Positions 25,167 to 54,524 of a stretch of 64,000 nt of DNA are shown piece after piece. Position 1 is the first letter of the stretch, and each line of letters starts with the position of its first letter. The notes under the pieces are model-generated. The model searched no databases, was not told where the DNA came from, and was given only the letters and a program-made list of their open reading frames with translations. The translations under genes were made by a program, and so were the position numbers. Where the stretch lies: the NCBI GenBank assembly GCA_905160935.1, contig CAJHZI010000190.1, positions 1,147,501 through 1,211,500 on the forward strand. Direction: 5' to 3'. The stretch is from Enchytraeus crypticus. Its lineage: Eukaryota > Annelida > Clitellata > Enchytraeida > Enchytraeidae.

Positions 25167-28100
25167 GTAAACAAAAAAGATATATTTTTTGTCGTTTGTA
25201 CCTTTTTCTGATTTTAAACTATAATCGTATAATATTTGTTACGGATTCTAATACAATATTCTTTTACATCATGATAAAATATCGTTATTCAAATTTAAAT
25301 AATTACATATTCTATTTACTATTTCTAAAATTCTTTTAACTAATAATTTTACAAATTTCATATAGTTTCATATGATTTCATAAATTGTTCTTATTTAATA
25401 CTAATGCTATTTGTAAAATATTCTAAATACCAAATTCTCTATTTACTGATTTTTTATTTAGCACTTCTTTTTTAGCTAGTTAAAATTGCAGACACTGATG
25501 GTATTAATTCATTTTAGATCAGTAATTTTCTATCCGTGACGAAATCATTTTCATTCAACCCTACATCACGTGTATTTAATAGTTATTTATGTGCTTATGT
25601 CAATTAAATACTGAGTTTTGTATTTTATTTCAGCTTGAAATCACAGAGGGATGTCGAGTCCCGGTAAAGCTGAAGAATTCTGGCGAATGGCGTAAGTCTT
25701 CATACTTTTATTGCACTAGAAAATGTAACAAATATGTACTAGCTGCAGTTTAGTCAGTCCAACACTCTCCAAGAGTACTGGATTAGTAAAACTATAAAAA
25801 CTGCCCGAAGTCAGAATATAATAATAAATAATTATTCACTTATTTCAATGATAGCGCACAGGCACCGGGCAGATATCTTACAACAACAACTTACACAGTT
25901 ATAAAAGCGCATTCCGGTACATAGAGGTAAAATAGTTACGTGAAATTTCTTCTGAAATCCTTCTAAACTGTTTGAGAAGAAATATGGATAACTGATTTAT
26001 TAGTAGTGTATACTGCTGGAACATTCCTGATGCCATCTTTGGTTATGATTTTGGCAGTAAATGTATACTTATTATGAATTTACATGTCAGTGATAATCAG
26101 GGCCATCGTACCCTGTAAAATGTGTAGAAATCAATGATTGAGGTTAGATTTAAACTGCCTAAAAATACTTGGTACAAAAATCTATCTCCTTTAACGTAAA
26201 ATTGTTTGTGTAATTTAAAAATTGTAAGTAAGTGTTTTATGACAGTGTAAATGTAATATTGATCATTCGTTTGTTTGACAGACTGGGCAGAGGTGCTGAG
26301 TAAGAAGGATTCTAACGGGGTCACTCTGTTCTACATTCACTATGAGGACTGTACGTACTTCTATATTACCTAGATCATTCGGCTTTGGGTCATAGTTATT
26401 ATTGTGATCATTTCACTAGAGATGTATTTTCAACGTTTAGTTAAGAAGCAGCTGGATGAATGGGTGTCTATTACACGACCTAAAAGCCTAATTGTTGGTA
26501 CAATGGTACAATTAGGCTTTTAGGTCGTGTAGGATTGATTAGGCTTTTAAAGAGCTAAAGCTGGTATAGCTAATGTTAACGTCAGTTTCATCACTCTAAA
26601 GCGATGTCAGTGACGGGAGAGAATTTCAACCCAGGATTTAAACCCCACACATACTGATCCGCGGTCGATTGTCTTACTGACGTCGCCACTGGCTCTCTGA
26701 GTCTGACCCACTGGCTCATTAGAGTGGTTTAAAAGCTGATTCTTGACCTTTACTGTCCAATCAGCGCCACTATGGCATTTAGCATGAGCGGCACTTCTTA
26801 AATAAAATTACTTATTATTATTATTATGATCATTTCACTAGAGATGTATTTTCAACGTTTAGTTAACAAGCGGTTGGATGAATGATGATGTGTTTACAAC
26901 GTTCAGTTAACAAGCGGTTGGATGAATGATGATGTGTTTACAACATTCAGTTAACAAGAGATTGGATGAATGGGTGTCTATTGAGGACATGGATGTTGCT
27001 CAGTTAGAAACAACGCGACGTGATGTAAAGCCCGCTCCAGTGAAGCTAGTGAACGGCTCCAGACCTTGTTCGCCCGCTGAGAACAAACATGATCTCACGG
27101 TATGCGTCAATCAGTTAATCACGGAATCAATTAATTAATAAATGATAATAAAGGTTTAACGTATGTTTCATCGTACAAGGATGATGTCAGGGACGTTAAT
27201 ATGTCAATCTGTTATTAGGAAAATTATTCGACCAATTATGTAACCTAGCTTTCAGTTGTTGTTATTGTCAACCTATTTATCTGTAATCAATCGTACTTTA
27301 GAGTCTGAATATCTACAAATATATATTTGTGTATTATACATTAAGAATATTTTTCTGAGTGACTATGCTCGTATCAAATTTATGTCAAAAAATAAACTAG
27401 TATACTCAAATATTCACATTTAAATTATCTGATATTGATTAGATTTAATATAATAGTAATAACAATTTACTGTATTAATTTTTAAATTAAGCTAACAACA
27501 AGATTTGTCTAGTTATAAGCAGCTGTGCCATGTGGCTCTGTAAAGTTATTCCCTCTTTCAACTCGGCTTCTCTGTAAATTTTACAAAGCCCATCTTATGT
27601 GTTTATTGTTGTGAAATGCTAGTACTTCAGAATGTAGTATTTGGAACTACAGATACTAGTAGTATTTTTGTAGTTTTTGTAGTATTATTAGCATTTGCAG
27701 TAGTAGTATGTAGTATTTGCACGTACTTGCTCGTTCATGATGATATTTATCACTTCATATTGTAGGAGACTTTTCTCTGCTGTTGTAGAATGGAAGCACA
27801 GGAGGAGTGTTTGGAATTGGTCATAAGAAGATTGGCAGTGGTCTGGCCAACAAGAAGAAGAAACTCACAGACGACTCGGTGAGTACTGGCCGCTTGTGGT
27901 AGAGTCAAATTTATCTGGCTGGAGCCAGTGGCGATGTCAGTAAGATATTCGACCGAGGATCAGTATGTGCAAGGTTCAAATCCTGGGCTCACCCGTCACT
28001 GACATCGCTTTCGAGTGAGGAAAGTGACATTAATATTAGCTTTACCAGCTTTTTCACTAATATATGCTTGTTTTTATTGAATATATGTCTAAAAATTTTG

Positions 28101-54524: not shown

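Follow-up and report, generated by a model that had tools for sequence, protein, structure and literature searches.

Exon-intron junctions copied in tandem into neighbouring introns of Enchytraeus crypticus genes: probable mirage-type minisatellites

In a 64,000-nucleotide stretch of the genome of the annelid Enchytraeus crypticus (assembly GCA_905160935.1, contig CAJHZI010000190.1, positions 1,147,501 to 1,211,500; hereafter the window), pieces that span exon-intron borders of two genes, KAT5/TIP60 and a TASOR-like gene, have been copied in tandem into the adjacent introns. These junction copies are very probably minisatellites of the kind described in lancelets as "mirages", generated by frequent tandem duplication and tolerated by the genes that carry them. 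A preliminary description of the window had reported seven such copies, with repeats beginning exactly at splice sites. All seven are present and six of them span a junction, while the match at KAT5 exon 12 stops short of one; moreover, the copies straddle the junctions instead of beginning at them. The assembly comprises 524 Mb in 802 contigs, the GC content of the window is 36-40%, and Rfam and tRNA scans returned no matches.

The exons of both genes were rebuilt from splice motifs and reading frame. KAT5/TIP60 has 13 exons on the plus strand (25634-34721), an open spliced frame of 472 amino acids and Pfam matches to MOZ_SAS, zf-MYST and Tudor-knot; this model lacks the start of the coding sequence, and its 18-base exon 6 is uncertain. 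The TASOR-like model covers six exons on the plus strand (43511-54524), further upstream exons not being determined, and gives an open spliced frame of 2172 amino acids with matches to PIN_TASOR and TASOR_alpha-beta; when the TASOR tail was used as a protein query, one relative of 310 amino acids was returned, from a metagenome, 40% identical. The exon called KAT5 exon 3 here was exon 4 in the preliminary description, KAT5 exons 7 and 12 are numbered alike, and our TASOR-like exon 3 donor, exon 4 acceptor and exon 5 donor belonged there to exons 4, 5 and 6.

A near-repeat scan (lag 15-450, score at least 14, simple repeats masked) returned 76 and 31 segments for the two gene regions, whereas five shuffles of each gene, made from its unmasked letters, returned none. 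In the alignments, exon and intron letters are duplicated together in one block, and donors and acceptors, i.e. 5' and 3' boundaries, are affected alike (Table 1). The three extra copies previously noticed at the KAT5 exon 3 acceptor all lie upstream of it, and the exon 7 acceptor and donor have one copy each. The exon 12 match is internal to the exon and was therefore not scored as junction-spanning, although the unit may formerly have included the acceptor. An additional case at the exon 12 donor is likely, by eye, to be a decayed copy, with a similar array deeper in intron 12; the ungapped match of this copy runs from intron base 2 onwards. In the TASOR-like gene, AG is present in 5 of the 6 upstream copies tested in the 29-bp family at the exon 4 acceptor, the exon 5 donor has three clear copies, and the exon 2 donor provides a new spanning case. 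The best spanning matches in the window are 80-97% identical, with scattered differences, and some copies in the flanking genes described below reach 98-100%.

Table 1. Exons and duplicated blocks in KAT5 and the TASOR-like gene (window positions)
Feature	Positions	Strand	Details
KAT5 exon 3 (exon 4 of the preliminary description)	26951..27099	+	gene model
KAT5 exon 7	30248..30403	+	gene model
Farthest copy of KAT5 exon 3 acceptor block	26396..26462	+	decoy 26441; 94% to 26818-26884
44-bp tandem array over KAT5 exon 3 acceptor (26950/26951)	26843..26972	+	decoys 26863, 26907; real start 26951
101-bp tandem duplication over KAT5 exon 7 acceptor (30247/30248)	30106..30298	+	decoy 30147, real 30248; lag 101, 97%
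KAT5 exon 7 donor (30403/30404) block 30376-30427 and copy 30533-30584	30376..30584	+	decoy donor after 30560; lag 157, 88%
Copied KAT5 exon 12 segment (33490-33519) upstream of acceptor 33542; original 33579-33608	33490..33608	+	lag 89, 97%; match without junction
KAT5 exon 12 donor region and likely decayed copy (33706-33748 to 33788-33830)	33706..33830	+	exon-end letters in copy recognisable by eye only
20/40-bp array in KAT5 intron 12	33997..34073	+	resembles exon 12 donor block by eye
TASOR-like exon 2 donor block and diverged copy 50502-50564	50248..50564	+	real after 50263; 50248-50287 to 50502-50541, copy 254 bp downstream; 80% in spanning part
70-bp array at TASOR-like exon 3 donor	52641..52817	+	lag 70; real after 52680, decoy after 52750
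29-bp array over TASOR-like exon 4 acceptor	52926..53124	+	real exon start 53116
44-46-bp array over TASOR-like exon 5 donor	53738..53923	+	real after 53760; decoys after 53806, 53850, 53896

In a plain positional test, 7 of the 36 window junctions lie inside a duplicated copy where 3.4-5.8 are expected (10-16% of intron positions), a difference that is mostly not significant in the binomial and rotation versions (p 0.04-0.36). A test on events is fairer because an array can enter an exon by one unit only. In this regard, 6-8 of 11-12 intragenic duplication events in the window span a junction, as compared with 1.5-1.8 expected (p 2e-3 to 2e-5), with an event list made by hand in a window itself picked for its look. 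The list left out a 12-bp TTGA-type array, a TC array, an exon-internal repeat and a 22-bp pair at 27679; a 31-bp array was added, and KAT5 exon 12 was tried in both ways. When exon edges were compared with edge-matched intron positions, an edge being counted if a copy covers it and the matching copy lies towards the intron, 7 of 38 edges were spanned, an effect of 8-9-fold at an 8-base margin. Outside both genes, 19 duplication clusters occur in 43.9 kb of the window.

An independent sample was taken from 100 kb either side of the window, with an exon finder trained on KAT5 and the TASOR-like gene. Six genes were recovered: a Nav sodium channel, an ankyrin gene with coiled-coil exons downstream, and four that we take to be USP4/15-like, KMT2E-like, TOCA-family FNBP1L-like and ERLEC1-like. 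The Nav gene has a D-E-K-A filter, and one piece of it finds its best PDB matches among vertebrate Nav channels. Pfam supports the domains of these genes, among them UCH in the USP4/15-like, SET/PHD in the KMT2E-like and the PRKCSH domain in the ERLEC1-like gene; matches to DUSP, Ubiquitin_3 and SH3, like that of the coiled-coil piece, fall under the curated cut-offs. We used the first-round model of the finder, aided by recognised homology, which gave 96 exons on real sequence and 43 in a reversed control. A self-trained version proved overfitted, calling 187 exons in the reversed control against 174 in real sequence, and we did not adopt its chains as they stood. The exon list was hand-picked from the finder output, omitting chains without recognised homology or antisense to stronger ones, among them MDM2-like and EGR-like chains and the plus-strand chains at 47446, 63712 and 165267; one exon, at 201630, came from a second, looser pass. 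An ERLEC1-like exon start was shifted to 251513 after its duplication had been seen; the start given by the finder, 251237, also lies in a copy, and the count is the same.

At the 8-base margin, 14 of the 134 flank edges are spanned, the hits being spread over five of the six genes, against 4.1-4.8% of edge-matched intron positions (2.2-2.6-fold, p 0.001-0.005) and 2.2-2.4% of intergenic ones (4.4-4.8-fold, p 1e-6 to 4e-6). The excess over introns is 2.1-2.4-fold at a 5-base margin (15/134, p 0.001-0.006) and 2.0-2.4-fold at a 12-base margin (11/134, p 0.006-0.02). Restricting the flanks to homology-backed exons leaves 10 of 102 edges at the 8-base margin (2.1-fold, p 0.02), or 2.9-fold when the copies must be at least 88% identical (p 0.002), the p values of this set ranging over 0.002-0.04; the uncurated exons give 18/158 edges at the 5-base and 15/158 at the 8-base margin. 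On the event scale, 15 of 67 flank events span a junction where 5.7 are expected (p 1e-4), with one hit in the USP-like gene, five in the KMT2E-like and three each in the ankyrin/coiled-coil, FNBP1L-like and ERLEC1-like genes; the KMT2E-like exon 165198-165524, in which both copies lie inside the predicted exon, is part of these 15 and not of the 14 edges.

Over all eight genes the count at the 8-base margin reaches 21 of 172 edges (2.7-3.2-fold), about one edge in eight in a 264-kb stretch. At an identity of at least 0.88 it is 19/172 (3.5-fold) and at 94% or more 10/172, against an intron rate of 1.4% (p 2e-4), while for copies at least 97% identical there is no significant excess (3/172, p 0.13). 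Edge counts of 134 and 38 are two per exon and include a few stop ends, and all p values assume independent junctions, whereas the junctions of one gene and the copies of one array are not independent. A further 50-kb region, on another contig, held 17 duplication clusters, and the exon finder detected no gene in it.

The suggestion that the copies lengthen introns and create look-alike splice sites is borne out by the sequence. We surveyed the copied sites on the intron side at 21 junctions (lags up to 450), scoring them with a matrix built on splice sites that have no copies (65 acceptors, 63 donors). AG or GT is retained in 51 of 59 copied sites, where 50.1 would be expected if both bases survived at the copies' own identity, and 43 of the 59 equal or exceed the real site in score; 16 of the 21 junctions have one or more decoys of this strength. 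These figures give no sign of selection either removing or keeping decoys. The USP-like donor (L015 8036-8213) has nine copies, eight at exact multiples of 47 bp; the ankyrin/coiled-coil donor (L021 1313-1447) has seven, mostly 37 bp apart, six of which equal the real-site score; and each of the five decoys at the ERLEC1-like acceptor at 254457 outscores the real site. The USP-like and ankyrin/coiled-coil donors appear suited to tests of splice-site choice. In KAT5 and the TASOR-like gene, the exon-proximal site preserves the reading frame. We followed the decoys of the six spanning junctions among the seven, and of the TASOR-like exon 2 donor, into the extended exon. Each runs into a stop there, bar one of the TASOR-like exon 5 donor at +46, where the frame is shifted, 46 being no multiple of three.

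Over the eight genes, duplication coverage has no peak at junctions: it is 12% at the junction, 12-15% at 20-220 bp into the intron and 8-15% beyond, and inside exons it falls from 9% at 20 bp to 1% at 60 bp. This flat profile, together with the lack of a significant excess at 97% identity, allows most of the pattern to be attributed to frequent tandem duplication stopped by exons; such duplication, tolerated where the coding sequence is unchanged, would explain most of what is observed. According to this model, short tandem duplications, which are frequent in the sampled stretches of the genome, place a copy in the intron wherever a unit straddles an exon-intron border. The gene would keep working if the spliceosome takes the copy nearest the exon body, i.e. 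the last acceptor or the first donor, and the arrays would grow, shrink and decay as other minisatellites do, decoys being lost at a roughly neutral rate. We infer that the duplications could originate by slippage or repair, that exon definition could account for the exon-proximal choice, and that the decoys, which seem to do no harm as judged from sequence, would be tolerated rather than functional. Two points weigh against this reading: a border excess is not predicted by pure tolerance, and a modest one, two- to threefold, is left over; in addition, none of the 26 counted Nav edges is spanned at the 8-base margin.

The excess could be accounted for if, as had been proposed, splice junctions acted as mutational seeds at which duplications start more often than elsewhere, by way of breaks, R-loops or template switching. 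The edge-matched excess in the flanks and in all eight genes, its persistence in copies at least 94% identical and the flank event test agree with this idea. Seeding is nevertheless only partly supported, because coverage is peakless and the plain window test mostly not significant; the 12-base margin and the homology-backed set also weaken the flank result, the excess loses significance among the most similar copies, Nav contributes nothing, and the non-independent junctions all come from one 264-kb stretch. We consider seeding possible, if doubtful. That tandem duplication truly concentrates at the splice junctions of this genome, about one junction in eight carrying one or more near-equal decoys while the exon-proximal site is still found, is a tentative and rather doubtful proposition; if true, it would offer a natural setting in which to study splice-site choice, intron growth and intron birth. 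At the other extreme, there would be no true junction excess, and a minisatellite-rich genome with short introns, seen through a striking window, would have produced the pattern by chance and ascertainment. The plain positional test and the flat coverage are in line with this, as is the stronger effect in the window than in the flanks (about 2.4-fold), which a picked window predicts. However, the excess recurs in genes that were not used to raise the hypothesis, and we regard this explanation as unlikely.

Regulated premature-stop isoforms (nonsense-mediated decay switches) or spare splice sites would give the decoys a function, consistent with their frequent strength and with the stops that nearly all tested window decoys bring. 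The loss of AG and GT, however, matches the neutral expectation, and the decoys occur in genes of unrelated families, which makes a functional role improbable. Finally, alleles or repeats could have been wrongly joined in the assembly, and the supplement legend of one lancelet study says of a published mirage that the draft genome had it aberrantly assembled (PMC3087553). Scattered differences between the window copies, units of tens of bases, multi-copy arrays and recurrence in several genes make such an artefact very improbable here, although the argument from divergence does not cover the flank copies that are 98-100% identical.

Several further features lie in and around these genes. In KAT5 intron 2, about 140 bp (26545-26699) between the farthest exon 3 acceptor copy and the others match at least 40 other genomic places at 83-89% identity and are thus a dispersed element, probably of a kind resembling short interspersed nuclear elements. 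Beside the farthest copy, an inverted repeat (26472-26531; minus-strand self-match, arms of about 22 bases by eye) may have been inserted at that place. TTGA-type repeats (30583-30731, 31877-32264 and 32837-33190) run towards the acceptors of KAT5 exons 8, 10 and 11, ending 4-18 bp short of them, and may serve as the tract preceding them. A 36-bp tandem repeat runs in frame within the large open TASOR-like exon (48885-48969). The reverse transcriptase of an element resembling non-long-terminal-repeat retrotransposons lies between the two genes (37531-38739 minus, Pfam RVT_1), and TASOR-like intron 2 holds what by eye is a fragment of a similar element (51371-52269 plus; 51715-52269 without a Pfam match). 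By eye, 3563-4375 minus, a piece with no Pfam match, resembles the first exon of the Nav gene; the remaining Nav exons run left out of the window. Upstream of the Nav exon beginning YVTEMVSF (L009 ~5880-6230 minus) stand three 48-bp copies of that exon's acceptor block, seen by eye and left out of the counts; in two of the three, AG stands directly before GTATGT, so that one unit is both donor-like and acceptor-like.

In lancelets, pieces of exon-intron borders copied into the intron have been called mirages, with cases in Adh3, the globins BflGb6 and BflGb9, and PGBD5 (PMC3087553, PMC3902484). Their units measure 10-72 and 150-160 bp (60 and 108 bp in PGBD5; PMC3902484), they have been proposed as a source of introns, and RT-PCR (reverse transcription polymerase chain reaction) suggests that regular splicing is undisturbed by them (PMC3087553). 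The E. crypticus copies are alike in that a tandem unit spans the boundary, at window and flank edges, that both 5' and 3' boundaries are involved, and that AG or GT is kept by many of the copies, though not by every one. They differ in one lag of 276 bp and in that their frequency was counted over eight genes, as opposed to single cases. Ordinary intronic minisatellites have comparable unit lengths and copy divergence, whereas the units here include exon letters and a splice site. In the potato RNA-dependent RNA polymerase gene, a new intron is reported to have arisen by a boundary-crossing tandem duplication, in connection with the AGGT model of Rogers, the duplicated block likewise carrying splice signals across an intron-exon boundary (PMC4974935). 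There the new intron is spliced, whereas here an old intron merely grows: no new intron within former exon sequence is needed in KAT5 or the TASOR-like gene, the protein reading through with the inferred boundaries.

Among the matches listed (titles and abstract openings of open-licence papers), none gives a genome-wide count of such junctions, which in the literature so sampled are described gene by gene, as compared with the 264-kb stretch counted here. Gene predictors may take decoy exons in genomes of this kind, as our exon finder did. Together, our findings constitute a further set of members of the known mirage type; their junction duplications offer material from which introns can grow or be gained, and the abundance of strong decoys makes the choice of the right splice site directly testable.
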